DNA from: Actinokineospora bangkokensis
GTDB taxonomy: Bacteria; Actinomycetota; Actinomycetes; Mycobacteriales; Pseudonocardiaceae
Reading direction: 5' to 3'
NCBI RefSeq assembly: GCF_001940455.1
Contig: NZ_MKQR01000032.1
Location: 1-64,000, forward strand
Length of the DNA stretch: 64,000 nt
Made by a program: the position numbers and the translations under genes. Shown in pieces: positions 8,605 through 54,625 of this stretch; within the stretch, counting starts at the first letter, position 1; every line of letters starts with the position of its first letter. The notes beneath the pieces were generated by a model, which searched no databases, was not told the origin of the DNA, and worked only from the letters and a program-made list of their open reading frames with translations.

Positions 8605-9450
8605 GTGTCCCACGTCCTCGACGAGATCGCCGGTCAACCCGGGTGCTGGCGCCGGGCCGCCGAGGCGGCCCGGCCGCTGGCCGAGCCGGGGCAGGCGGTG
8701 GCGGTGGTCGGCTGCGGCACGTCGTGGTTCATGGCGATGGCCTACGCGGCGCTGCGCGAGGCGGCCGGGCACGGGCGCACCGACGCCTTCGCCGCCTCGG
8801 AGTTCCCGGCCCACCGCGACTACGACCGGGTCGTGGCGATCACCCGCTCGGGCACCACGACCGAGGTGCTGGACCTGCTGCGCGGGGTCCCGGCGACCGT
8901 CCTCACCGCGAACCCCGACCTCGGCGGCGACACCGTCCTGCTGGACTACGCCGACGAGCGGTCGGTGGTCCAGACCAGGTTCGCCACCACGGCGCTGGCC
9001 TACCTGCGCGCCTCGCTCGGCGCCGACCTCACCGGCGCGGTCGCCGACGCCGAGGCGGCGCTGGGGGTCGACGTCAGCGGGTGGGTGGGCGCCGAGCAGG
9101 TCACCTTCCTCGGTCGCGGGTGGACGGTGGGCCTGGCGCACGAGGCGGCGCTGAAGCTGCGCGAGGCGGCGTCGGCGTGGACCGAGGCGTACCCGGCGAT
9201 GGAGTACCGGCACGGGCCGATCAGCGTGGCCCAGCCCGGCAGGCTCACCTGGATGTTCGGCGCGGCCCCCGCCGGGCTCGCCGCCGACGTGGAGCGCACC
9301 GGGGCGGGCTGGGTGGACAGCGACCTCGACCCGATGGCGCACCTGGTGGTGGCGCAGCGGCTCGCGGTGGCCGTCGCCGAGCGGCGCGGGCTCGACCCCG
9401 ACCACCCCCGCCACCTGACCCGCTCGGTCGTGCTGCCGCCGTGCCCCTGA
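8605..9450 (+). CDS. SIS-domain sugar-phosphate isomerase/deaminase (AgaS-like)
   Basis: 281 residues with two SIS-type phosphosugar-binding halves. The first contains VVGCGTSWFMAMAYAAL and AITRSGTTTEVLDLL; the second FLGRGWTVGLAHEAALKLREAA and the conserved EYRHGPIS. This matches the isomerase part of GlmS and the AgaS family (galactosamine-6-phosphate deaminase/isomerase). There is no glutaminase domain, so it is not GlmS itself. Its stop lies inside the start of the class II aldolase gene (10-bp overlap), and a PfkB kinase follows. That trio fits conversion of an amino-sugar or keto-sugar phosphate to tagatose 6-phosphate, phosphorylation and aldol cleavage. The exact substrate cannot be read from sequence. 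Confidence 0.82.
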   Translation: MSHVLDEIAGQPGCWRRAAEAARPLAEPGQAVAVVGCGTSWFMAMAYAALREAAGHGRTDAFAASEFPAHRDYDRVVAITRSGTTTEVLDLLRGVPATVLTANPDLGGDTVLLDYADERSVVQTRFATTALAYLRASLGADLTGAVADAEAALGVDVSGWVGAEQVTFLGRGWTVGLAHEAALKLREAASAWTEAYPAMEYRHGPISVAQPGRLTWMFGAAPAGLAADVERTGAGWVDSDLDPMAHLVVAQRLAVAVAERRGLDPDHPRHLTRSVVLPPCP

Positions 9451-10340
9451 CCCCCACCGCCGACCTGCTCGCCGCCGCCGTCCGGGACGGCCGCGGCGTG
9501 GGGGCGTTCAACGTCGTCCAGCTGGAGCACGCGCACGCCCTGGCCGCGGCCGCCGAGCACGCCGGGCGCGCGGTGGTGCTCCAGATCAGCGAGAACTGCG
9601 TGCGCTACCACGGGTCGCTGGCCCCGCTGCTCGCCGCGACCCTGGCCGTGGCCGCCGGGTCGAGCGCGCCGGTGGCCGTGCACCTGGACCACGTGGTGTC
9701 CCCCGGGCTGGTGGACGAGGCGCTGGGGTCGGGGATCGGGTCGGTGATGTTCGACGCCTCGGCCCTGCCCTACGCCGAGAACGTGGCGCGCACCCGCGAG
9801 GTCGCGGCCCGCTGCCGCGCCGCGGGGGTCGCGGTGGAGGCGGAGCTGGGCGAGGTCGGCGGCAAGGACGGCGTGCACGCCCCCGGCGCCCGCACCGACC
9901 CGGCCGAGGCCGCCGCGTTCGCCGCGGCGACCGGGGTGGACGCCCTGGCCGTGGCGGTGGGCAGCTCGCACGCCATGCGCACCCGCGACGCCGCACTCGA
10001 CTTCGAGCTGGTCGCCGCGCTGCGCGCGGCCGTGCCGGTGCCGCTGGTGCTGCACGGCGCCTCGGGCATCGCCGACGCCGACCTCACCAGGGCGGTGCGC
10101 GCGGGCCTCGTCAAGGTCAACATCTCCACGCACCTCAACGCCGCGTTCACCGCCGCGGCGCGGGCCGCGCTGGCCGCCGACCCCGAGCTGGTCGACCCCC
10201 GCCGCTACCTGGGGCCCGCGCGCGACGCCGTCGCCGAGGAGGCGGCCAGGCTGCTCGACCTGCTCGACGCCGTGCCCGCCGCCGCGCTGCCCGCGACCGG
10301 GCCGCCCGGCGCGCCGGGCCGCGCGACCCCCGGCGCCTGA
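9441..10340 (+). CDS. Class II fructose/tagatose-bisphosphate aldolase family protein
   Basis: 299 residues starting at the GTG that overlaps the end of the SIS gene. Zn-dependent class II features: GVGAFNVVQLEHAHA at the N-terminus, the zinc/catalytic block AVHLDHV (about 77), EAELGEVGGKDG (about 137), a HAMRTRD segment near 180, HGASGI (about 210) with a zinc histidine, and GLVKVNISTHLN for phosphate binding. These suit the GatY/KbaY/FbaA family, which cleaves tagatose- or fructose-1,6-bisphosphate. The neighbouring SIS isomerase and PfkB kinase favour a tagatose-type route. The C-terminus carries an extra Pro/Ala/Gly tail of about 20 residues not needed for the barrel. Confidence 0.88.
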   Translation: MPLTPTADLLAAAVRDGRGVGAFNVVQLEHAHALAAAAEHAGRAVVLQISENCVRYHGSLAPLLAATLAVAAGSSAPVAVHLDHVVSPGLVDEALGSGIGSVMFDASALPYAENVARTREVAARCRAAGVAVEAELGEVGGKDGVHAPGARTDPAEAAAFAAATGVDALAVAVGSSHAMRTRDAALDFELVAALRAAVPVPLVLHGASGIADADLTRAVRAGLVKVNISTHLNAAFTAAARAALAADPELVDPRRYLGPARDAVAEEAARLLDLLDAVPAAALPATGPPGAPGRATPGA

Positions 10341-45104: not shown

Positions 45105-45851
45105 ATGGCACGCCGCGCTGTGACGACCCTGCTGGCCGCGACCGCCCTGGCGGTGGTCCCCACCACGGCGTCAGCGTCCCCGCAGCCCGCAGGCGGCGCC
45201 GCGGGTTCCTCGCCGGTGGCAGGCACCGCCGCGGCCCTCTCGCGGCTCACCGGCTCCGCGGGGGCGGCTCCGCAGGCCACCGACAGCAGCGCCACGGTCG
45301 GGGGCGGGATGGCCCTCTTCGGCATCGACGCGGTCGACCTCGGCCCCCTCGCCCCCTGCGCGGCGGGCGGCCCCACCTCCGCCACCACCCCCGGCGCCGC
45401 CTCGGACAACCAGTCCGTCGTCTACGGCTCCGGCAGCACCACCTGCGCCACCGACCCCGCCACCGGCGAGTCCAGGGCCACCGCCACCGGCCGCACCTTC
45501 AAGCTCGACGCCCTCAAGCCCTACGGCGGCCCCGCCATCCGCGTGTCCTCCTACTCGGCCACCTGCTCCACCACCCCGAACGGTTCCCGCTCCTCCATCA
45601 CCCTCGGCGGCGTCACCGGCCTCGACCTGCCCACCACCATCCCCCAGAACTTCTCCACCAAGATCCCCGGCGCCACCCCCACCGACCCGCCCCTGGCGCT
45701 CGTCACGGCCAACTCGGTCGTCACCCCCGAACCCGGCGACGGCTCCGCCACCGTCAGCGCCCTGCGCATCCAGTTCTTCCCCCAGGGCGGCCAGGGCAGC
45801 GGCACCATCACCCTCGCCACCGTCACCTGCACGCCCGACTCCGGGGACTGA
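45105..45851 (+). CDS. Secreted protein related to choice-of-anchor-P proteins, no anchor
   Basis: 248 residues. Signal peptide MARRAVTTLLAATALAVVPTTASA (cleavage about 25). The body is Ser/Thr/Gly-rich beta sequence with three paired Cys regions (APCAAG, TTCATD, ATCSTT, VTCTPD). The layout, two halves with a TGRTFKLDALKPYGG...SYSATC block and VSALRIQFFP...GTITLATVTC at the end, parallels the choice-of-anchor-P protein at 48111 (NGLHVRLLP...GTGDLVLGSATC). Unlike that protein it stops right after the last Cys without a membrane tail, so it should be released. ATG with GAGGAGTGA upstream. Function unknown; structural or adhesive is a guess. Confidence 0.75.
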   Translation: MARRAVTTLLAATALAVVPTTASASPQPAGGAAGSSPVAGTAAALSRLTGSAGAAPQATDSSATVGGGMALFGIDAVDLGPLAPCAAGGPTSATTPGAASDNQSVVYGSGSTTCATDPATGESRATATGRTFKLDALKPYGGPAIRVSSYSATCSTTPNGSRSSITLGGVTGLDLPTTIPQNFSTKIPGATPTDPPLALVTANSVVTPEPGDGSATVSALRIQFFPQGGQGSGTITLATVTCTPDSGD

Positions 45852-45868
45852 CCCCTCGACCGCCTGCT

Positions 45869-45913
45869 CGACCGCCGCTGGGCACCCGATCACACCGGGC
45901 CCAGCGGCGGTCG
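45869..45913. terminator. Bidirectional hairpin terminator
   Basis: Perfect 15-bp arms CGACCGCCGCTGGGC (45869-45883) and its complement (45899-45913) with a 15-nt loop, exactly between the convergent ends of the secreted-protein and glycosyltransferase genes. Confidence 0.75.
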
Positions 45914-45924
45914 TCGTCCGGGGG

Positions 45925-47298
45925 TCAGTGGTCGAGGGCGACGACGTGGAGGTTCTGGCGTTCGGTGTTGCGGCGGGTCTTGGTCCAGCCGTTGTGGCCG
46001 CGCAGCAGGCGGATCGCCGCGCGCCAGGAGGTGATGTAGAAGGTGTAGATGTAGACGGCGTAGGTGAGGCCGTAGAGGACCGCTTTGGCGAAGCCGACCT
46101 GGGGTTCGCAGCGGGCGCGGTAGATGGGGCCCCAGATGACGAAGGGGAGCAGGCCGAAGGAGCCGTAGACGGCGAAGAGGATCCAGGCGCCGCCGGTGAA
46201 CCAGGTCCAGACCTCGGTGGGGGCTTGGGCGGTGCGGAAGAACAGCAGCAGGAACGGGATCGGGTAGATGAGGGTGCCCAGCAGCTGCATCCAGGGCTGG
46301 GCGAGGTAGTACATCATCTCGGCCGCGCCGAGGGTGGTCAGGTGGGCGGAGTCCCAGATGCGGCGGACGTAGCGGCCGCACTGCATGGTGCCCTGGCCCC
46401 AGCGGGTGCGCTGGGCCAGGAAGCGGCGCATGCTGTAGAGCGCCTCCTGGTCGACGTGGGTGTCGACGGTGAAGCCGGTGCGCCAGCCGCGGGTGAGCAG
46501 GTGCACGCCGAGTTCGAAGTCCTCCAGCAGGGCGCCGCGCCAGGGGCCGGGGCCGGTGGCGATGGAGTCCAGGGCGGACAGGCGGGTGAACTGGCCGTTG
46601 CCGCCCATGGAGATGGTGCCGGTGTGCCCGCGCGACATCTGGATCGCCGCGATCGCGCCGCGGAACTCCAGGTCCTGCATGCGGACCAGGGCCGAGGACA
46701 GCTGCCTGCGCAGGAAGCCGCCCTCCGGCGGCGGGGTGCCCCGGTTGCCCATCCGCACGTCGACCTGCACCGCGCCGATCGAGGCGTCGCCGAACAGGTG
46801 GGCGGCCGCGCAGGTCTCCAGGCAGTTCGCCGCCGGGCGGCCGTCCGCGTCGACCACGACCACCACGGCGCGGTCGGTGTCGGCGTAGCGGCCCATCCAG
46901 GCCTTGAGCTCGCGGTAGGCGGCGTTGAGCGCGTCGCCCTTGCCGGTGCGGGCCTGCGGGCGGCGGCGCTGGACCAGGTGCAGGTGCGGGTCGCCGCCGT
47001 GGCGGGGGCCGCGCAGGTCGCGCACCACCTGGGCGGTGGCGTCGTCGGAGTCGTCGTCGATCACCCACACGTGGGCCACCGGGAAGGTGGTCCGCAGGTA
47101 CACGACGGTGTCCCGGATGACGGCCTCCTCGTCCCGGCAGGGGACCAGGAAGTGCCACTCGAACCGGTCCGGGTCGCCCGTGCCCGCGTGCTTGTGCCGC
47201 AGGTAGGGCACCACGATCAGGCCCACGTAGCACAGGAACGCCACGCTCATCGTCAGCGCGAGCGCCTGGGTGAACCCCAGCAGCAGCGACAGGTTCAC
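45925..47298 (-). CDS. Membrane GT2 glycosyltransferase of the exosortase locus
   Basis: 457 residues. One N-terminal helix (about 5-30), a GT-A domain with WHFLVPCRDEEAVI (about 49), VIDDDSDD (about 80) and VVVVDADGR (about 140), then FEDFELGVHLLTRGW-like LLEDFELGVHLLTRGWRT (about 250) and the processive-enzyme motif QRTRWGQG (Q..RW, about 290). Four or more helices follow. This is the layout of cellulose/chitin/hyaluronan-synthase-like GT2 enzymes, which polymerise or attach sugars at the membrane. Its GTG overlaps the exosortase stop by four bases, so both are translated together. Sugar and acceptor are unknown; modification of the sorted proteins is an inference. Confidence 0.85.
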   Translation of the reverse strand: MNLSLLLGFTQALALTMSVAFLCYVGLIVVPYLRHKHAGTGDPDRFEWHFLVPCRDEEAVIRDTVVYLRTTFPVAHVWVIDDDSDDATAQVVRDLRGPRHGGDPHLHLVQRRRPQARTGKGDALNAAYRELKAWMGRYADTDRAVVVVVDADGRPAANCLETCAAAHLFGDASIGAVQVDVRMGNRGTPPPEGGFLRRQLSSALVRMQDLEFRGAIAAIQMSRGHTGTISMGGNGQFTRLSALDSIATGPGPWRGALLEDFELGVHLLTRGWRTGFTVDTHVDQEALYSMRRFLAQRTRWGQGTMQCGRYVRRIWDSAHLTTLGAAEMMYYLAQPWMQLLGTLIYPIPFLLLFFRTAQAPTEVWTWFTGGAWILFAVYGSFGLLPFVIWGPIYRARCEPQVGFAKAVLYGLTYAVYIYTFYITSWRAAIRLLRGHNGWTKTRRNTERQNLHVVALDH

Positions 47299-47894
47299 CC
47301 GGCCTCCCGGGGCTTGCGCGTGGCCAGCCGGACGAACAGGACCAGGGCGGCGGCGCCGCCGAGCACGCTGACCATCGACCCCAGCAGCGTGTGGCCCCAG
47401 TAGTAGCCGCGGTCGGTGCCCAGCCAGCCCACCAGGCCCACCAGGGTGAGGATGCGCAGCTGGTTGACCACGACCACCGCCACCGCGGCGACGCCCAGCG
47501 CCAGCAGCACCCGGCTCGAGATCCGCGGCCGCAGCGCGATCATCACCGCGGCGACCAGCACCAGCGGCAGCACCAGGAACGCCGAGGTGCACTCGGGGCT
47601 CATCGCCAGGCCGAACGGCCGGTCACCGCCGAGTCCGAAGTAGAGCGCCTGCCGGTCGGCGGCCAGGTAGACCCCGTGGTCGCTGGTCCAGCTGACGAAC
47701 ACCGACGCCAGCGCCATCTCCCCGGTCCGGTACTGCCGGTTCACCACCACCAGCGCCGCGGCCAGGCCCACCAGGGCCAGCACGAGCAGCCGGACCAGCG
47801 GTGGCGACGGCCCCCGGACGGGGGCCGGGTCGGCGAGCGCCACGGCACCTCCCATGGTCGGCGCCACCGCGGTGGTGGCGTGCCCACCCATCAT
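47295..47894 (-). CDS. Exosortase/archaeosortase-family protein
   Basis: 199 residues, about five or six membrane helices. The exosortase catalytic triad is present in order: Cys in MSPECTSAFLVLP, Arg in VVNQLRILTLVGLVG and His in GYYWGHTLLGSM. These enzymes cut a C-terminal PEP-CTERM-like signal (motif, helix, basic tail) and transfer the protein to an anchor, in parallel to sortases. It is short compared with proteobacterial EpsH-type exosortases but matches the compact actinobacterial kind. ATG at 47894 (MMGG) chosen; a further 45 codons upstream are open but unlike the family. It is divergent from the choice-of-anchor-P gene and coupled to the glycosyltransferase. Confidence 0.83.
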   Translation of the reverse strand: MMGGHATTAVAPTMGGAVALADPAPVRGPSPPLVRLLVLALVGLAAALVVVNRQYRTGEMALASVFVSWTSDHGVYLAADRQALYFGLGGDRPFGLAMSPECTSAFLVLPLVLVAAVMIALRPRISSRVLLALGVAAVAVVVVNQLRILTLVGLVGWLGTDRGYYWGHTLLGSMVSVLGGAAALVLFVRLATRKPREAG

Positions 47895-48110
47895 CGGTGT
47901 CCCACCCGGAGCGGGTGTATCGCTGAAACGGGTGACAGGGCCCGAGCAGTGGTGACCGTACGGGTGAGTTCGGACTGTCCACACCCGACATCCCACACGA
48001 ACAGATGAGTTGTCGTTGCGCCGCCGCACCTACCTCGTTGACCCCCACACGAGGGAGCCAGGAGCGCGCCCACCGCGCCCCGGCCCCACCTCTCCCACCA
48101 GGAGGACCCG

Positions 48111-48851
48111 ATGATCTCGCAGAAAACGCGCCGGGGAGCCGTCATCGGCGCGCTCACCGCCGCGGTGCTGATGGCGGGCGCCGCGCCCGCCTCCGCGGCG
48201 CCCGGTGACGGCTCCGCCTACGTCGCGGCGGGCACCGTGACGCTGCTGGGCGTCCCGGCCGTGACCATCCCGCCGCAGGCGGCCACCAGCACCGACGGGC
48301 CCAACACCGCGCAGCTGGCCGGGCTGGGCTTCCCCGGCGTGCTCAACGCCGGGCTGGTCAGCAGCGCGTCCACGCGCGACGACAGCACCGGCGTCGTGCA
48401 CTCCGAGGCCACCCTGGCGGGCGTCGGCCTGACGCTGGGCAACCTCGGCACCATCCAGGCCATCGACGTCGTCTGCGACGCCACCCAGGCGGGCATCACC
48501 GGCGGCACCACGCTGGCGGGGGTGGCCATCGCGGGGGTCAACGTCCCGGTGAACCCCGCGCCGAACACGGTGATCGCGGTGCCGCCCGGCCCGCTTGCGC
48601 TGGTCTCGCTGACCTTCAACGAGCAGATCGCCAACCCCGACGGCAGCCTCACCACCAACGGGCTGCACGTGCGCCTGCTCCCCCTGCTCGGCACCGGTGA
48701 CCTGGTGCTCGGCAGCGCCACCTGCGGACCGGCCGCCGCCCCGGTCCCGCTGGCCTCCGGCGCCGGGCTGTGGATCGGCCTGGGCCTGCTGGGGGCGCTC
48801 GCGCTGCCGGTCGGCCTGCACGCGGTGCGCAGGCGCACCGCCGCGGCCTGA
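48111..48851 (+). CDS. Choice-of-anchor-P-like surface protein with C-terminal sorting tail
   Basis: 246 residues. Signal peptide (RRGAVIGALTAAVLMAGAAPASAA, about 8-31). The domain has the pattern of actinobacterial choice-of-anchor-P proteins: ASTRDDSTGVVHSEATLAGV, LGTIQAIDVVCDAT, VNPAPNTVIAV, LTFNEQIANPDGSLTTNGLHVRL and GTGDLVLGSATCG. The C-terminus is PVPLASGAGLWIGLGLLG, a helix of about 20 residues, then VRRRTAAA, a tripartite sorting signal. The likely processor is the exosortase encoded on the opposite strand 217 bp away, although no PEP motif is evident and PVP is only a candidate. ATG with AGGAGGA upstream. Confidence 0.8.
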   Translation: MISQKTRRGAVIGALTAAVLMAGAAPASAAPGDGSAYVAAGTVTLLGVPAVTIPPQAATSTDGPNTAQLAGLGFPGVLNAGLVSSASTRDDSTGVVHSEATLAGVGLTLGNLGTIQAIDVVCDATQAGITGGTTLAGVAIAGVNVPVNPAPNTVIAVPPGPLALVSLTFNEQIANPDGSLTTNGLHVRLLPLLGTGDLVLGSATCGPAAAPVPLASGAGLWIGLGLLGALALPVGLHAVRRRTAAA

Positions 48852-48861
48852 GGGGCCGCGG

Positions 48862-49023
48862 GTGTACAGGGCACCGGGAGCGGGCCTGGGTGTCGGCGGC
48901 GGCACCGCGCTCGCCGTGACCGGTGCGGACGTGGGGTGGTGGATCGCGCTCGGGATCGCGCTGCTCATCACCGGCGTCCTGCTGCTGCGCGCCGCGCGGC
49001 GGCGCCGATCGGCCGCTGGGTGA
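48862..49023 (+). CDS. 53-residue protein consisting of an LAVTG sorting signal
   Basis: Starts at GTG 48862, ten bases after the previous stop. The sequence is a Gly-rich N-terminus (YRAPGAGLGVGGGT), then ALAVTGAD, a hydrophobic helix VGWWIALGIALLITGVLLL and RAARRRR. LAxTG-helix-Arg is the signal used by class E sortases of actinobacteria. There is no export signal before it, apart from the helix itself. It may be an anchor module, a remnant of a longer surface protein, or chance coding; codon bias and the exact sorting architecture favour a real product. A 14-bp hairpin follows 4 bp downstream of the stop. Confidence 0.6.
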   Translation: MYRAPGAGLGVGGGTALAVTGADVGWWIALGIALLITGVLLLRAARRRRSAAG

Positions 49024-49026
49024 GAC

Positions 49027-49060
49027 GGCGTGGCCCCCGGCTCCCCCCGGGGGCCACGCC
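49027..49060 (+). terminator. Hairpin terminator after the LAVTG gene
   Basis: Perfect 14-bp arms GGCGTGGCCCCCGG (49027-49040) and complement (49047-49060), 6-nt loop, just before the WecB-type gene, which therefore needs its own promoter or read-through. Confidence 0.7.
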
Positions 49061-49078
49061 CCGGAGGTGAGGTGCGCG

Positions 49079-50215
49079 ATGCGTGAGCGGGTGCTGGTCC
49101 TGGTCGGCACGCGGCCGGAGGCGGTCAAGTGCGCCCCGGTGGTGCTGGAGTTGCAGGGGCACCGGCGGTTGGCCCCGGTGCTGGTGCACAGCGGCCAGCA
49201 CGGGCCGGTCGTCGAGCAGGCCCTGGCGCCGTTCGGGCTGACCGCGGAGCTGACCCTGCCGGTGCGCCGCGCGGGCGGCGGGCAGGCCGAGCTGGTCTCG
49301 GCGCTGCTGCCCGCGCTGGACGCGCTGCTGGAGCGGGTGCGGCCCGCGGCGGTGCTCGTCCAGGGCGACACCACCACGGCGCTGTGCGGGGCGCTCGCCG
49401 CGTTCTGGCGGCGGGTGCCGGTGGCCCACCTGGAGGCGGGCCTGCGCACCGGCGACCTGGCCTCGCCGTTCCCGGAGGAGGCCAACCGGCAGGTGCTCGC
49501 GCGGTTGGCGGCGCTGCACCTGGCGCCGACCCCGGCCGCGGCCGACGCGCTGCGCGCGGAGAACGTCGCGCCCGGGTCGGTCGTGGTCACCGGCAACACG
49601 GTGGTGGACGCGGTGCGCCTGATCGCCACCGCCGACCGCCCGCCGGTCGACCCGCTGCTGCGCGCGGCGGGCGCCACCGGGGAGCGGTTGGTGCTGGTCA
49701 CGATGCACCGCCGCGAGTCGTGGGGCGCCCCGCTGGAGGAGGTGCTGCGCAGCGTGCGCACCCTCGCCCACCGCCACCCGGACGTGCGGGTGGTGCTGCC
49801 CGCGCACCCCAACCCGGCGGTGCGCGCGCAGGTCTCGGCGGTGCTCGGCGGGCACCCCAGGGTGGTGGTCACCGAACCGCTGGCCTACCCCGACCTGGTG
49901 TGGCTGCTGCGCCGCAGCGCGCTGGTCATCACCGACTCGGGCGGCATCCAGGAGGAGGCGCCCACCTTCGGCGTCCCGGTCCTCGTCGCCCGCGACACCA
50001 CCGAGCGCCGCGAGGCCGTCGACGCGGGCTGCGCCTGGCTCGTGGGCACCAGCCCGGCGCGCATCCTCGACGCGGCCGACCGCGCGCTGCACGGCGCGCT
50101 GGTCGTGCCGCGCACGGCGAACCCCTTCGGCGACGGCCACGCCGCCGCCCGCGTCTGCGCCGCGCTCGACCGCACCCTGCGCGTCGACCCGCACCTGGCC
50201 GCCGCGGGGTTCTGA
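49079..50215 (+). CDS. wecB: UDP-N-acetylglucosamine 2-epimerase (WecB-type, non-hydrolysing)
   Basis: 378 residues. N-terminal VLVGTRPEAVKCAPVVLEL, VHSGQHGPVVEQAL, VQGDTTTAL, HLEAGLRTGDLASPFPEEANRQ, then VVTGNTVVDAV, VTMHRRESWG, and SALVITDSGGIQEEAPTFGVPVLVARDTTERRE: all the WecB/MnaA blocks. It interconverts UDP-GlcNAc and UDP-ManNAc for wall or surface polysaccharides. ATG start after GGAGGTGAGG. Lying beside a GT2 glycosyltransferase and exosortase, it may supply the sugar nucleotide for that system, though WecB genes occur in many contexts. Confidence 0.92.
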   Translation: MRERVLVLVGTRPEAVKCAPVVLELQGHRRLAPVLVHSGQHGPVVEQALAPFGLTAELTLPVRRAGGGQAELVSALLPALDALLERVRPAAVLVQGDTTTALCGALAAFWRRVPVAHLEAGLRTGDLASPFPEEANRQVLARLAALHLAPTPAAADALRAENVAPGSVVVTGNTVVDAVRLIATADRPPVDPLLRAAGATGERLVLVTMHRRESWGAPLEEVLRSVRTLAHRHPDVRVVLPAHPNPAVRAQVSAVLGGHPRVVVTEPLAYPDLVWLLRRSALVITDSGGIQEEAPTFGVPVLVARDTTERREAVDAGCAWLVGTSPARILDAADRALHGALVVPRTANPFGDGHAAARVCAALDRTLRVDPHLAAAGF

Positions 50216-50231: not shown

Positions 50232-50807
50232 TCAGCCGACGGCGGGGGAGCCGGTGAGGGTGACGCCCGCGCCGGTGAGCTGGGCGAGCGCCTTCTCCAC
50301 CGTCGCGGGCGCGACGCCCGCGGTCAACCCCAGCAGGACGGTGACCCCGAAGCCCGCCGCGGCGGCGTCGAGCGCGGTAGCGCGGACGCAGTGGTCGGTG
50401 GCGATGCCGACGACGTCCACCTCGGACACCCCCGCCGCGCGCAGCCAGTCGGTCAGCGACGCGCCGCCGGGGCCCTCGCCCTCGAAGCCGGAGTAGGCCG
50501 CGGCGTAGGCGCCCTTGGAGAACACCGCCTCCACCGCGGACACGTCCAGCTCCGGGTGGAACGAGCTGCCGGGGGTGCCCGCCACGCAGTGCACCGGCCA
50601 CGAGTCGACGTAGTCGGGGGTGTCGCTGAAGTGCGCGCCCGGGTCGACGTGGTAGTCGCGGGTGGCGACCACGTGGTCGTACGGGGTGCTCGCCGCGTGC
50701 CGGGAGATCGCCGCCGCGACGGCCGCCCCGCCCGCGACCGCGAGCGAGCCGCCCTCGCAGAAGTCGTTCTGCACGTCGACGACGATCAGGGCCCTCTTGC
50801 CGCTCAT
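50232..50807 (-). CDS. pncA: Nicotinamidase
   Basis: 191 residues, cysteine hydrolase of the isochorismatase-like fold. Catalytic Asp in VVDVQNDFCEGGSL (about 10), metal ligands in DYHVDPGAHFSDTPDYVDSWPVHC (Asp and His around 52-72), active Lys in FSKGAYAAAYSGFEG (about 98) and nucleophilic Cys in IATDHCVRATALDA (about 140). It converts nicotinamide to nicotinate, and is the enzyme that activates pyrazinamide in mycobacteria. Its ATG overlaps the stop of pncB, the next step of the NAD salvage pathway. Confidence 0.95.
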   Translation of the reverse strand: MSGKRALIVVDVQNDFCEGGSLAVAGGAAVAAAISRHAASTPYDHVVATRDYHVDPGAHFSDTPDYVDSWPVHCVAGTPGSSFHPELDVSAVEAVFSKGAYAAAYSGFEGEGPGGASLTDWLRAAGVSEVDVVGIATDHCVRATALDAAAAGFGVTVLLGLTAGVAPATVEKALAQLTGAGVTLTGSPAVG

Positions 50808-52114
50808 GCCTGCTCCTGCGCTGGGTGGACGGTGGGGATGGCGGGCTCGCCCGCCGACAGCTTGAGACCTTCCCACGGCAGGCTGACCAACCCCTGCCGG
50901 ACGCGGGCGCGGCTGTCGCCCAGGGTCGGCAGGTCGTCGACCGGGTCGCCGCCGCGCAGCAGCGGGACCTGCAGCAGCCGGTCGTGCTCGCCCAGCTCGG
51001 GGGCCGGGCCCGAGGCCAGGTAGACGACCTCCTCCAGCGCGGTCCCGGTGGGCTTGTGCCGCCGCAGCGCCAGCTTGCGCCCGCCGCGCGACTCCTTGTG
51101 CGACGAGCGCTTGGCCACCGGGCGCCCGTCGACCTCCACCAGCTTGTAGACCATGCCCGCGGTGGGGCTGCCCGAGCCGGTCACCACCGAGGTGCCCACG
51201 CCGTAGGCGTCCACCGGTTCGGCGCGCAGCGCGGCGATGGCGTACTCGTCGAGGTCGCCGGAGACCACGATCCTGGTCCCGGTGGCGCCCAGGGCGTCGA
51301 GCTGCTCGCGGGCCTGGCGGGCCAGCACGCCCACGTCGCCGGAGTCGATGCGGATGGCGCCGAGCCGGGGCCCGGCCACCGACACCGCCGTCTCGATGCC
51401 GCGGGTGATGTCGTAGGTGTCGACGAGCAGGGTGGTGCCCACGCCCAGGGCGGCCACCTGCGCCTCGAACGCCTCCTTCTCCGAGTCGTGCAGCAGGGTG
51501 AACGCGTGCGCGCAGGTGCCCGCGGTCGGGATGCCCCAGCTGCGCCCGGCCTCCAGGTTGGACGTGGTGTCGAACCCGGCGATGTGCGCCGCGCGGGCCG
51601 AGGCGACCGCGGCGGCCTCGTGCGTGCGGCGGCTGCCCATCTCGATGATCGGCCTGCCGTTGGCCGCGCTGGCCATCCGCGCCGCCGCCGAGAGCACCGC
51701 GCTGTCGTGGTTGAGGATGGACAGCACCAGCGTCTCCAGCACCACCGCGTCGGCGAAGGTGCCGGTCACCGTCAGCACCGGCGACCCGGGGAAGTACAGC
51801 TCGCCCTCCGGGTAGCCGTCGACGTCCCCGCCGAAGCGGTAGTCGGCCAACCAGCGCAGGGTGTCCTCGTCCACCACCCCGGTGGCCCGCAGGTGCTCGA
51901 CCTCGGCCGGTCCGAAGCGGAAGTCCGCGATGGCCGCCACGACCCGCCGGGTGCCGCCGACCACGCCGTAGCGGCGGCCGTCGGGCAGCCTGCGGGCGAA
52001 GACCTCGAAGGCGCACCGGCGCTGCGCCGTGCCGTCGGCCAGCGCCGCGGACAGCATGGTCAGCTCGTAGTGGTCGGTCAGCAGTGCGGTGCTCAGCCCC
52101 GTGGTCGCAGCCAT
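50804..52114 (-). CDS. pncB: Nicotinate phosphoribosyltransferase
   Basis: 436 residues. Starts TALLTDHYELTMLSAALADGTAQRRCAFEVFARRLP, then EGELYFPGSPVLTVTG, MGSRRTHEAAAVASARAAHIAGFDTTSNLEA and the PRPP-binding region IRIDSGDVGVLARQAREQLDALG, typical of actinobacterial PncB. It joins nicotinate to PRPP to give nicotinate mononucleotide, using ATP. It is coupled to pncA and divergent from clpS across 128 bp, the same pncB-clpS junction as in mycobacteria. Confidence 0.95.
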   Translation of the reverse strand: MAATTGLSTALLTDHYELTMLSAALADGTAQRRCAFEVFARRLPDGRRYGVVGGTRRVVAAIADFRFGPAEVEHLRATGVVDEDTLRWLADYRFGGDVDGYPEGELYFPGSPVLTVTGTFADAVVLETLVLSILNHDSAVLSAAARMASAANGRPIIEMGSRRTHEAAAVASARAAHIAGFDTTSNLEAGRSWGIPTAGTCAHAFTLLHDSEKEAFEAQVAALGVGTTLLVDTYDITRGIETAVSVAGPRLGAIRIDSGDVGVLARQAREQLDALGATGTRIVVSGDLDEYAIAALRAEPVDAYGVGTSVVTGSGSPTAGMVYKLVEVDGRPVAKRSSHKESRGGRKLALRRHKPTGTALEEVVYLASGPAPELGEHDRLLQVPLLRGGDPVDDLPTLGDSRARVRQGLVSLPWEGLKLSAGEPAIPTVHPAQEQA

Positions 52115-52242
52115 GGACGGCAGCCTAAGCGGGCGCGGGCCGCCGCGGGGGCGGGCCGGGCGGAAGCGATCTGTGACGTTGTACTCCGATCGAATGAAGA
52201 TCCGCCGGACCCCGGGAATGCGGACGTGCCACCATTGACCCC

Positions 52243-52542
52243 ATGACCGCGCCAGTCGACATGGAGCAGACCCAGGCCAGCCCGGTCGGTGCCGAGGTGG
52301 TCGCCGAGGACCGGCCGTGGCAGACCGTCGTGTGGAACGACCCGGTCAACCTGATGTCCTACGTGACCTACGTGTTCCAGAAGCTGTTCGGCTACACCCG
52401 CGACCAGGCCACGAAGCTGATGCTCGACGTGCACCACGAGGGCAAGGCGATCGTGTCCAGCGGCTCGAAGGAGAAGGTCGAGGGCGACGTCGCGAAGCTG
52501 CACGCCGCGGGGCTGTGGGCGACGATGGAGCACACCTCGTGA
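52243..52542 (+). CDS. clpS: ATP-dependent Clp protease adaptor
   Basis: 99 residues. The core [46 protein letters not shown] shows the ClpS fold with the N-degron pocket residues (NDPVNLM) and the ClpA/C contact. It delivers N-end-rule substrates to ClpC1P. An N-terminal acidic extension of about 20 residues precedes the domain, as usual. ATG start; the following gene starts at a GTG overlapping its stop (GTGA). Confidence 0.95.
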
Positions 52543-53096
52543 AGCCGTGGAAGCGGTCCGGGGGCACCGTCACCGCGCACATCGACCGGCAGGAGGCCGC
52601 GGTGCTGCGCGGCCTGGTGTCCCAGGTCGACGACATGCTGCGCGCCAGGGTCGAGGACACCCCGCAGGACGAGCTCGCCGAGCTGACCGGGATCCGCACC
52701 GGCCCGACGACCTCCCCCGACGACCCGATCCTGTCCCGGCTGCTGCCCGACTTCCACCGCCTCGACGACGACAACCCGTCGAAGGAGGACCTGGACTCCG
52801 CGGCGATGCTGCGCTCGCTGCACGAGCCGCGGCTGCTGGAGGCCAAGGTGGGGGTGGCGGCGGTGGTGCTGGAGACCTGCCCGGCCAACGGCGGTGACCT
52901 GGCGCTGACCCCGGAGCAGGCCGACGCGTGGCTCTCGGCGCTCAACGACGTGCGGCTGGCCCTGGGCACCGCGATCGAGGTCAGCGAGGACATGCCGGAC
53001 GAGCTGCCCGACGACGACCCGCGCAGCCCGCACCTGTCCGTCTACCACTGGCTCACCTGGGTGCAGGAGTCCCTGGTGCAGGCACTGTCCTCGTGA
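52539..53096 (+). CDS. DUF2017 protein
   Basis: 185 residues from the overlapping GTG. The SV-type acidic helical protein contains [37 protein letters not shown] and [18 protein letters not shown], hallmarks of DUF2017, which follows clpS throughout actinobacteria (Rv1332 in M. tuberculosis). Its role is unknown; linkage suggests partnership with ClpS or the Clp protease. Its stop overlaps the next start (GTGA). Confidence 0.9.
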
Positions 53097-53740
53097 CGGT
53101 CCTGGTCGGACGCAGCGGCGGCGCGGTGGTGGTGCTGCTGCCCGAGGGCTCCGTCGGCGGCGCGGACGCCCGCGGCGGCCCGGCGGGCACCCGGGAGGTC
53201 GAGGTGCTGGCGCCGGAGAACCTGGTGGCCAGGGTGGACGCGGTGTGCGTCGGCTCGGGCGGCCCCGCGGGGCTGGCCGCCGCGGACGGGGTGATGCGCT
53301 GGTTGCGCGAGCGCGACCGGGGCTTCCGCGTCGGGGACGACCCGGGGCAGGTGGTGCCCATCGTCCCGGCCGCCACCGACCCCGGCGGGGAGGTCGCCTC
53401 GGCGGAGGCGGGCCACCTGGCGTGCGAGGCGGCGGAGCCGGTGCCGGAAGGCTCCTGGGTCGCCGTCGGTGACCACCGGGTGCAGGCCGTGCCTGCGGGC
53501 GCCGTGGCCGTGGTGGTCACCGACGCCCCCCTGGACAAGGCGCAGTGCAGGCGGTTGGCGATCTCCGCGCGGGACGGGGCCGTGCGCGCCGCGGGCGCGG
53601 GCGGGCTGGGCGCGTTCACGGTGTTCACCGCGGCGACGGGGCAGGCGGCGGCGCCGGTCGGGCCTGCGGCGCTGGACCGGTTGTGCGGTGCCGCCGCCGA
53701 CGCGGTCGCCGGGGCGTGGGGCGGGGCGTCGCGGCCCTGA
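53093..53740 (+). CDS. P1-family (DmpA/S58-like) peptidase homologue, shortened and probably inactive
   Basis: 215 residues. It keeps P1-peptidase blocks (DARGGPAGTREVEVLAPENLVARVDAVCVGSGGPAGLAAADGVMRWL, and AVVVTDAPLDKAQCRRLAISARDGAVRAAG), with the position between DUF2017 and mec, where mycobacteria carry a full-length P1 homologue. Two things are missing. The protein is more than 100 residues shorter than usual, with the central GGLGSAS-type region gone. The self-cleavage and nucleophile site before VVVTDAPL (usually N-T/S-T) reads P-A-G-A. So autoprocessing is not expected. It may be decaying or retain a binding role. Confidence 0.75.
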   Translation: MTVLVGRSGGAVVVLLPEGSVGGADARGGPAGTREVEVLAPENLVARVDAVCVGSGGPAGLAAADGVMRWLRERDRGFRVGDDPGQVVPIVPAATDPGGEVASAEAGHLACEAAEPVPEGSWVAVGDHRVQAVPAGAVAVVVTDAPLDKAQCRRLAISARDGAVRAAGAGGLGAFTVFTAATGQAAAPVGPAALDRLCGAAADAVAGAWGGASRP

Positions 53741-53792
53741 GCAGGGGCGCCGCCCGCCGCTCTCACCGACTGGGACGCCGCCGACCAGCAAG

Positions 53793-53798
53793 TAGGAT
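53793..53798 (+). promoter_or_regulatory. -10 hexamer TAGGAT, leaderless start of mec
   Basis: Seven nucleotides before the GTG at 53806. An ATG at 53797 overlaps the box and is therefore a poor start. Confidence 0.5.
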
Positions 53799-53805
53799 GG
53801 GCGCC

Positions 53806-54258
53806 GTGCTGACGATCCGCCGAGACCTCGTGGACGCGATGGTGGCCCACGCCCTGCGCGACCACCCCGACGAGGCGTGCGGTGTCATCGCGGGACCCGA
53901 CGACGGCTCGGACCGCCCGGAGCGGTTCATCCCGATGGTCAACGCCGCCCGCTCGCCCACCTTCTACGAGTTCGACTCCGCGGACCTGCTCCGGCTCTAC
54001 CGGGAGATGGACGCCAACGACGAGGTGCCGGTGGTCGTCTACCACTCGCACACGGCCACCGAGGCCTACCCGTCGCGCACCGACGTCTCCTACGCCTCCG
54101 AGCCGTTCGCCCACTACGTGCTGGTCTCCACCCGCGACCCCGAGGTGCGCGAGGTGCGCTCCTACCGGATCGTCGACGGCGAGATCACCGAGGAGGAGGT
54201 CGAGGTGGTGGAGTCCTACCACCTCGCAGGCACCGGACCGGACGCTCCCGTGGAGTGA
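53806..54258 (+). CDS. mec: Mec+ (JAMM/M67) metallopeptidase of the CysO-cysteine pathway
   Basis: 150 residues. JAMM zinc protease: Glu in HPDEACGVIAGP (about 26) and the motif YHSHTATEAYPSRTDV (HxH...S..D, about 80-92). In M. tuberculosis Mec+ (Rv1334) cleaves cysteine from the C-terminus of the CysO-cysteine adduct made by CysM. Gene order mec-cysO-cysM is conserved here. I choose GTG 53806 (leaderless, VLTIRRDLVDAM) rather than the upstream ATG. Because CysO here ends with two residues after Gly-Gly, Mec+ might also trim them. Confidence 0.93.
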   Translation: MLTIRRDLVDAMVAHALRDHPDEACGVIAGPDDGSDRPERFIPMVNAARSPTFYEFDSADLLRLYREMDANDEVPVVVYHSHTATEAYPSRTDVSYASEPFAHYVLVSTRDPEVREVRSYRIVDGEITEEEVEVVESYHLAGTGPDAPVE

Positions 54259-54346
54259 TCCGACCCCGCCCCGGAATACCCGGGGCGGTCCCGCACGTCT
54301 TCACCACTGGACCCAGCAGCACGCCCACCCCGGAGGTTCGACCACC

Positions 54347-54625
54347 ATGGCCGTCACGGTCTCCATCCCGACCATCCTGCGCACGCACACCGGCGGCGAG
54401 AAGTCCGTCCCGGCGGCGGGTTCCACCCTGGCCGAGGTGATCGACGACCTCGAGGCCAACCACGGCGGCATCAAGCAGCGCCTGGTCAAGGACGGCGCGC
54501 TGCACCGGTTCGTCAACGTCTACGTCAACGACGAGGACGTGCGCTTCGCCGGTGGCCTGGAGGCCGCGGTGGCCGACGGCGACAACGTGACGATCCTGCC
54601 CGCGGTCGCGGGCGGCGCGCGCTGA
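54347..54625 (+). CDS. cysO: CysO sulfur-carrier protein (ubiquitin-like)
   Basis: 92 residues, MoaD/ThiS fold: VTVSIPTILRTHTGGEKSVPAAGSTLAEVIDDLEAN, FVNVYVNDEDVRFAGGLEAAVADGDNVTILPAVAGG. The Gly-Gly end is the site where MoeZ-type activation forms a thiocarboxylate, which CysM uses to sulfurate O-phosphoserine. Unlike M. tuberculosis CysO, which to my memory ends at Gly-Gly, this one continues with Ala-Arg, so the tail may have to be trimmed before activation. ATG with GGAGG upstream; 65 bp before cysM. Confidence 0.94.
   Translation: MAVTVSIPTILRTHTGGEKSVPAAGSTLAEVIDDLEANHGGIKQRLVKDGALHRFVNVYVNDEDVRFAGGLEAAVADGDNVTILPAVAGGAR

Follow-up and report, generated by a model that had tools for sequence, protein, structure and literature searches.

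An exosortase P locus of Actinokineospora bangkokensis and a Met-Tyr microprotein that seems to belong with its glycosyltransferase

A six-gene locus

The window analysed here is a stretch of 64,000 nucleotides from Actinokineospora bangkokensis (contig NZ_MKQR01000032.1, positions 1 to 64,000), and its positions 45105-50215 hold a real six-gene locus. An exosortase of the type named exosortase P (XrtP) and a membrane family 2 glycosyltransferase (GT2) lie on one strand; on the facing strand are two secreted proteins, one of them the choice-of-anchor-P protein CoaP, a protein of 53 residues that begins with Met-Tyr (hereafter, the microprotein) and the epimerase WecB. Every feature named in a preliminary description of this DNA is present where it had been placed. 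The set is not an unrecognised one, a point on which the description needs correction: the XrtP, CoaP, glyco_with_XrtP and LAXTG_small_WW set is already named by NCBIfam curators, and covers four of the proteins beside WecB. A literature search found no published study on the XrtP, CoaP, GT2 and microprotein system. The features, with profile scores and model cut-offs, are as follows.

45105..45851, + strand: P0001, secreted, choice-of-anchor-P-like, no anchor (99.1% in profile comparison with CoaP)
45925..47298, - strand: membrane GT2 of the processive-synthase type, glyco_with_XrtP (NF053846, 715.2 bits, cut-off 520)
47295..47894, - strand: exosortase P, XrtP (NF012139, exosort_XrtP, 242.9 bits, cut-off 200)
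48111..48851, + strand: CoaP, predicted choice-of-anchor-P substrate with a CoaP_CTERM tail (NF040603, 98.6 bits, cut-off 27; NF053845, 58.2 bits, cut-off 35)
48738..48842, + strand: CoaP_CTERM sorting signal, consisting of PVPLASGAGLW, a membrane helix and an Arg tail (profile match and CoaP alignment)
48862..49023, + strand: Met-Tyr LAVTG microprotein, 53 residues, GTG start, no signal peptide (NF058583, LAXTG_small_WW, 84.9 bits, cut-off 65)
49079..50215, + strand: WecB, UDP-GlcNAc 2-epimerase (TIGR00236, 370.5 bits, cut-off 210.15)

XrtP and its predicted substrate

Profile support for the exosortase was divided. The protein passes the curated NCBIfam models, both that for XrtP and the general exosortase/archaeosortase signature TIGR04178 (32.1 bits, cut-off 23), and fails the Pfam model PF09721; the latter was dropped as a basis for the call, its score being sub-threshold and a search of the whole genome with its profile having returned no match, and NCBIfam was used. 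We then aligned the window's protein with 28 of 29 other profile hits, leaving out L029 (22.4 bits). Cys102, Arg147 and His168, the ordered residues that had suggested an exosortase fold, are invariant in these 29 sequences. An AlphaFold2 model of XrtP (mean pLDDT 84.7) is mostly helical with three short strands, and the XrtP profile gave no match against solved structures. With XrtP, the CoaP tail and the XrtP-associated glycosyltransferase all present, the locus belongs to the XrtP system.

The tail of CoaP has the core P-x-P-[LM]-A-S-G-A-G-[LM]-W in nine aligned CoaP proteins, which makes a conserved motif of the PVPLASGAG stretch that had been guessed to link exosortase and substrate. Fifteen genomes had a CoaP_CTERM match, and in each a single one was reported, among partly scored candidates (40 of 111 in the window's genome). 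Given this single match per genome, XrtP and CoaP are probably one enzyme and one substrate. The two secreted proteins are indeed of related layout: profiles of the P0001 family (four sequences) and the CoaP family (nine) match with an hhalign probability of 99.1%, and P0001, which has no match in NCBIfam or Pfam, is by this comparison the same kind of secreted domain as CoaP. Only 48111-48851 carries the membrane tail, P0001 being without an anchor. Elsewhere in the window's genome (L121, 2654-4854) two tandem choice-of-anchor-P proteins end in other C-terminal anchors, one of them LASTG.

Co-occurrence and gene order

Across 180 genomes of the order, the window's included, XrtP scored over its cut-off in 13. 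LAXTG_small_WW was over cut-off in all 13 of these and in none of the 167 others, CoaP_CTERM in 12 of 13 against 1 of 167, and the glyco_with_XrtP GT2 in 13 of 13 against 7 of 167. In the thirteenth XrtP genome a run of N hides the CoaP tail, and in the one other genome with a tail (G125) the tail and an exosortase-like gene are on different contigs. Compared by Fisher tests, this co-occurrence is more than chance. At most 34 LAXTG_small_WW and 40 CoaP_CTERM candidates were scored per genome and many genomes had more, so the absences are incomplete and a match may have been missed. These counts bear out the earlier suggestions that exosortase, GT2 and anchor-P genes should recur together in other genomes and that the anchor-P tails should be commoner where the exosortase is found.

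For a second sample, named genomes were scanned by a pattern-based search with ten XrtP sequences as queries (tblastn), in which distant XrtPs would be missed. It gave 77 loci from Lentzea, Amycolatopsis, Actinokineospora, Saccharothrix and allied genera, with one record labelled Nocardia; one genome, that of Actinokineospora iranica, has two XrtP loci (L141 and L144). WecB, CoaP, GT2 and the microprotein are each present in 77 of 77, the microprotein by a pattern that required Tyr at position 2, L..TG and a W. All 77 have the tblastn match to XrtP, with the gene itself called in 74, and a relative of 45105-45851 was called in 35. The order and strands are constant throughout, with WecB, microprotein and CoaP facing XrtP and GT2, and the spacing between CoaP and microprotein is 2-22 bases. 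Thus the combination of exosortase, GT2, choice-of-anchor-P substrate, sortase-type signal and epimerase noticed in the window is conserved as one locus.

The flanking genes vary between genera among the loci displayed. Downstream of the island, window positions 50232-54625 hold a housekeeping run (nicotinamidase-like, nicotinate phosphoribosyltransferase-like and ClpS-like, by eye) that recurs in congeners. One congener with the same housekeeping flanks, G014, has a GT2 (L117, 8650-9996) that has lost conserved catalytic motifs; profile search found neither XrtP nor a CoaP tail in this genome, and inspection around the GT2 showed no microprotein. In G168 the GT2 survives only as fragments (L119, about 9080-9960) at the site that holds the island in relatives.

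The microprotein and its relatives

The window's microprotein, described earlier as a mini sorting-signal protein followed by a UDP-GlcNAc 2-epimerase (48862-49023 and 49079-50215, both over cut-off), has 16 residues before LAVTG and, by eye, no signal peptide. It has the LAxTG motif, helix and basic tail of a class E sortase substrate and lacks the N-terminal signal peptide, so its insertion would need another route. Relatives share a layout of Tyr near the N-terminus, a Gly/Ala-rich stretch, usually L[A/P]xTG, one helix and a basic tail; VATTG, LPLTG, LPQTG and LTYAG are among the motif variants. In an alignment of 21 members (A3), M1, Y2, T20, G21 and G38 show no variation and L17-A18 very little, G38 lying inside the helix. 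The rows were chosen for a Met-Tyr (or Val-Tyr) start, with L120 (a longer Met-Tyr protein), L128, L129 and L130 (no TG) left out, so the invariance of Y2, T20 and G21 is partly a selection effect. Apart from the microproteins, Tyr at position 2 is rare: it occurs in 118 of the 2603 proteins called at these loci, 99 of them microprotein-like and 19 others. The wider relatives score below the LAXTG_small_WW cut-off of 65 (14.8-33.5 bits for nine bacterial and 15.3-26.1 bits for four phage proteins), and we therefore call them relatives rather than members.

The 77 XrtP loci hold 71 distinct microprotein sequences, with a median dN/dS of 0.41 over 729 same-length pairs and values below 1 in 97% of pairs; judged by these sequences, the microproteins look to be under purifying selection. 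The idea that the microprotein's tail is a second exosortase signal was rejected, as the hhalign probability against the CoaP tail is 0.9%.

Pairing of microprotein and GT2 in bacteria

We examined the surroundings of 38 GT2 relatives in the order (in G033, outside the 38, the stretch was fetched and the GT2 was not called). A Met-Tyr microprotein with TG lies within 4 kb of the GT2 in 24, the motif being VATTG in G072 and LPFTG in G035; the remainder are weighed below.

We next searched with the microprotein profile in the phylum (346 genomes) and the class (296 genomes), scoring at most 18 and 22 candidates per genome, respectively. Loci of the top matches from the two runs, together with seven earlier loci, made 65 test loci, three of them repeat places. 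A GT2 lies within 1.5 kb in 15 of 16 Tyr-start loci (Tyr at position 2-4 with a plausible start) against 1 of 49 others, or, with repeats removed, in 14 of 15 against 1 of 47 other LPXTG-type tails (Fisher p 7.6e-12). As scored, the Tyr-start locus without GT2 is L268, where VY lies inside a very long frame, and the non-Tyr locus with GT2 is L260 (G632), whose microprotein begins MYKPP and was missed by the pattern. The GTtwo profile was partly built from three tested loci (L223, L227 and L245), all of which an independent profile matched too.

A further set of 20 wider stretches was picked from the class run for a short or N-terminus-reaching match (12 already among the 65 and eight additional), a selection that favours complete microproteins and gives no rate for all hits. 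The GT2 is within about 1 kb of the microprotein in 20 of 20, with an exosortase gene between them in some; the Tyr is the second residue in 17 and the third or fourth in three, and six stretches hold an exosortase-like gene. Among earlier stretches, L213 and L215 have a Met-Tyr LAVTG or LPLTG protein beside the GT2, and six small LPXTG-like frames without N-terminal Tyr (L211, L212, L214, L216, L217 and L218) had no GT2 match in the fetched stretch. An Embleya megaplasmid carries the same GT2-microprotein pair, seen inside a longer listed frame.

Because relatives pair with GT2 in stretches without a detected exosortase, the microprotein seems to belong with the glycosyltransferase. The assignment of the microprotein to the exosortase was accordingly dropped, and the LAVTG protein is not solely a part of an exosortase system.

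Pairs carried by phages

Searched against 50,697 phage records, the exosortase-free type of GT2 (L287) matched 29, of which 12 were opened. In all ten actinophages opened, a Met-Tyr L-A-x-T-G microprotein of about 50 codons with a helix and basic tail is directly downstream of the GT2. These phages, of Microbacterium, Arthrobacter and Brevibacterium (L301-L303, L305-L311), are Merry, RobsFeet, Count, Sparcetus, Fireman, Tyrumbra, SilentRX, RikSengupta, Cantare and AWGoat, the annotated start in AWGoat being two codons upstream of Met-Tyr. One sequence is shared by RobsFeet, Fireman and Tyrumbra and another by Sparcetus and RikSengupta, leaving seven distinct phage microproteins. The phage records annotate the frame as a gene, for a hypothetical or membrane protein, and PHROGs gave weak matches for the phage microproteins scanned. 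Of the two Firmicute phages, Javan622 has an unrelated frame beside its GT2, and the gene table of phiOE33PA shows no small frame directly downstream. A genomics paper on Microbacterium phages (PMC7302621) names two glycosyltransferase genes in cluster EC and nowhere uses the word sortase. The phage pair may possibly serve to change the host surface by using the host's sortase.

GT2, WecB and neighbouring sortases

The GT2 begins at a GTG codon and its start overlaps the exosortase stop by 4 bases, in keeping with the coupling first described. Asp 82, 150, 152 and 260 and the Q296, R299 and W300 of the Q..RW motif seen at the outset are invariant in 28 rows chosen by us, the decayed G014 copy not being among them. 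With its DxD, general-base Asp and Q..RW, the enzyme falls by motifs into the processive type of cellulose and hyaluronan synthases. Compared with the PDB, its profile finds synthases of cellulose, hyaluronan and chitin, and its highest-scoring match, 6yv7, which is named only as a family 2 enzyme, covers just the front half.

Of the 38 GT2 relatives, 30 have WecB within the sequence fetched around them (up to about 9 kb on either side), whether or not an exosortase is there. In G543 (L283, 2105-4897, - strand) the two are fused in one frame of 931 codons, with NCBIfam matches to GT2 at residues 59-295 and to WecB at 537-884, and the fusion is adjoined by a microprotein and an exosortase-like gene. 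UDP-ManNAc is the product of WecB. Given the single frame and this product, UDP-ManNAc is the likely donor of the GT2. In six other loci (L107-L112) an exosortase-like gene and a GT2 occur where no microprotein was found, and the GT2s of L108-L112 have a long low-complexity C-terminal extension.

According to a published account (PMC5148588), LAXTG is a cleavage site of class E sortases. All 15 genomes searched gave a class E sortase match, which was over cut-off in 14, and the window's genome has two strong matches on other contigs. Neighbouring genes were scanned for sortases for some pairs only. Such a gene is directly beside the pair in L297 (177.7 bits), and in L287 a gene directly beside it matches the class E model at 140.1 bits, under the cut-off of 160, and PF04203 at 86.4; at the exosortase locus L102 the cluster includes one (199.5 bits) two genes beyond the GT2. 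A Pfam sortase match in L286 is weak (27.4 against 26.6). Two further kinds of neighbour fit a secreted glycan, without proving one: GH26 glycoside hydrolases, close to the pair in L287 and in L295, and a DUF2334 protein in L118. The available text of a 2026 paper on SrtE in Actinoplanes (PMC13251363) makes no mention of a glycosyltransferase or exosortase.

Discussion

From the triad, the CoaP tail that follows XrtP, the gene order, the fusion, the pairing, the nearby sortases and the signs of purifying selection, all seen by comparison, we infer a chemistry, including the acceptor of CoaP, the sugar and the role of the microprotein for the GT2. Our reading, to which we give a probability of roughly 55%, is that the locus makes a single surface layer through two coupled routes, in which XrtP sorts CoaP, WecB and GT2 provide a glycan, and the microprotein is the sortase-anchored partner of the GT2. 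Specifically, XrtP would act as an intramembrane Cys/Arg/His transpeptidase that cuts the C-terminal PxP(L/M)ASGAG-helix-Arg tail of CoaP and passes CoaP to an acceptor. WecB would make UDP-ManNAc, from which the GT2, built like cellulose and hyaluronan synthases, would make a surface glycan. The microprotein would insert with its N-terminus out, as a dedicated partner of the GT2; a class E sortase, whose gene lies elsewhere in the genome or, in some relatives, near the pair, would cut it at LAxT|G and fix its N-terminal peptide to peptidoglycan, placing the glycan or its synthesis at the wall. We consider it very likely that XrtP processes CoaP and, with nearly the same confidence, that the microprotein acts with the GT2. 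That a class E sortase cuts the microprotein is probable, a grade that we lowered on seeing that one of the three nearby sortases is under its cut-off and another is not adjacent. Use of the WecB product by the GT2 is favoured slightly less strongly.

Several observations weigh against this reading. The island contains no sortase gene, the literature search found no experiment on its system, and XrtP scores 15.8 bits against PF09721, under the cut-off of 25.7. No microprotein was found for nine of the 38 GT2 relatives (G040, G127, G113, G071, G164, G064, G079, G041 and the decayed G014); in four the partner, 0-12 bases upstream, has one helix and neither Tyr2 nor TG; and the Met-Tyr microprotein beside the GT2 of G062 lacks TG. 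The TG motif is present in 18 of the 20 wider stretches, L295 and L296 having LTYAG instead. In L215 (3991-4131) a second GT2 accompanies a 46-residue LPLTG protein (MSANQELPLTG) without Tyr, a true counterexample. Neither Tyr2 nor the sortase motif is therefore universal.

Some of these cases would be expected if the microprotein were a non-catalytic membrane subunit of the GT2, in the manner of PgaD, with the LAxTG-like stretch structural rather than a sortase site. The four one-helix partners without TG, which are of similar size and stand at exosortase-free GT2-WecB loci, favour such a subunit, as do G062, the LTYAG of L295 and L296 and the helix glycine invariant in 21 aligned members. 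Set against it are the TG motif of all 77 XrtP-type and nearly all of the wider microproteins, the sortase genes near some pairs, and the order LAxTG, helix and basic tail, which is the layout of class E substrates as described in the accessible part of PMC5148588. We regard such a subunit as unlikely, if still a serious alternative.

A bolder version of the preferred reading would make the microprotein both primer and wall anchor of a peptide-primed polysaccharide. Glycogenin starts its polymer on tyrosine; here the GT2 would start its polymer on the N-terminal Tyr, the peptide would insert N-terminus out, and a class E sortase would join both to peptidoglycan. We hold this to be rather improbable. 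Were it true, actinobacteria would have a general, portable means of fastening a sugar polymer to their wall, the XrtP island being an elaborated version and the two-gene version of the phages recoating the host by means of the host's sortase.

We are similarly doubtful that the GT2 makes a lipid-linked sugar that is the acceptor onto which XrtP transfers CoaP, which would make the locus one glycolipid-anchoring pathway with the microprotein as an accessory. The 4-base overlap of GT2 and exosortase, their being kept together in diverged loci and the existence of an NCBIfam model for an XrtG-associated glycosyltransferase speak for it. Against it, the matches of the GT2 profile to polymer synthases span the catalytic region that includes Q..RW, and the microprotein accompanies GT2 relatives also at loci without a detected exosortase.

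It is very improbable that the microprotein is instead a second substrate or a cofactor of XrtP. Its presence in all 13 XrtP genomes and, over the cut-off, in none of the others, and its place 2-22 bases from CoaP, would fit, but its tail is unlike that of CoaP, and relatives pair with GT2 in loci without a detected exosortase and in phages. Finally, a spurious frame beside real genes, as the short length, the GTG start and a first mechanical listing that showed only the end of a longer frame might suggest, is extremely unlikely given its recurrence in 77 of 77 loci as 71 distinct sequences, the low dN/dS and the same-sized frame annotated as a gene in phage records.

The simplest account, we infer, is that the microprotein is a sortase-anchored partner of the GT2. 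With it, a catalogued exosortase system gains a testable function, and its least conspicuous component, a protein of 53 residues, turns out to mark a two-gene module of far wider occurrence. If this module makes a wall-tethered glycan, actinobacteria and their phages would have a new route to change the cell surface, and class E sortases would gain substrates that searches for signal peptides would overlook.

Comparison with known systems

The closest known system is the XrtP set of NCBIfam itself: the four proteins of the window pass its curated cut-offs, and the window is no different in kind. The LAXTG_small model stops at the XrtP type, its cut-off standing well above the scores of the bacterial and phage relatives. 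To our knowledge, what is new is the microprotein family beyond that type, its tie to GT2 genes and to phages, its N-terminal tyrosine and the GT2-WecB fusion.

The PEP-CTERM/EpsH (XrtA) system of diderms, in the part of its description available (PMC1569441), shares the invariant Cys/Arg/His, substrate tails of motif, helix and Arg, and a neighbourhood of polysaccharide genes. It is described there as confined to bacteria with an outer membrane, with none in Actinomycetes, and as having a median of 8 tails per genome, in contrast to the one CoaP tail per genome reported here. XrtG and its associated glycosyltransferase (TIGR03110 and TIGR03111) are an exosortase-GT2 pairing in Gram-positives, likened here by model names alone; the NCBIfam scan listed neither model against the exosortase or GT2 of the window, and TIGR03111 gave 23.8 and 25.4 bits on two exosortase-free GT2s against a cut-off of 363.95.

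Class E sortase substrates such as chaplins share LAxTG, helix and basic tail with the microprotein (PMC5148588, in part), whereas the microprotein is without a signal peptide and has only about 20 residues before the motif. Cellulose synthases, hyaluronan synthases and PgaC/PgaD share the processive-type GT2 motifs. PgaD, the neighbour of PgaC, is a small membrane partner; the window's GT2 scores only 39.6 bits against PgaC (cut-off 422.3), and its own small partner differs in having a sorting signal and an N-terminal Tyr.

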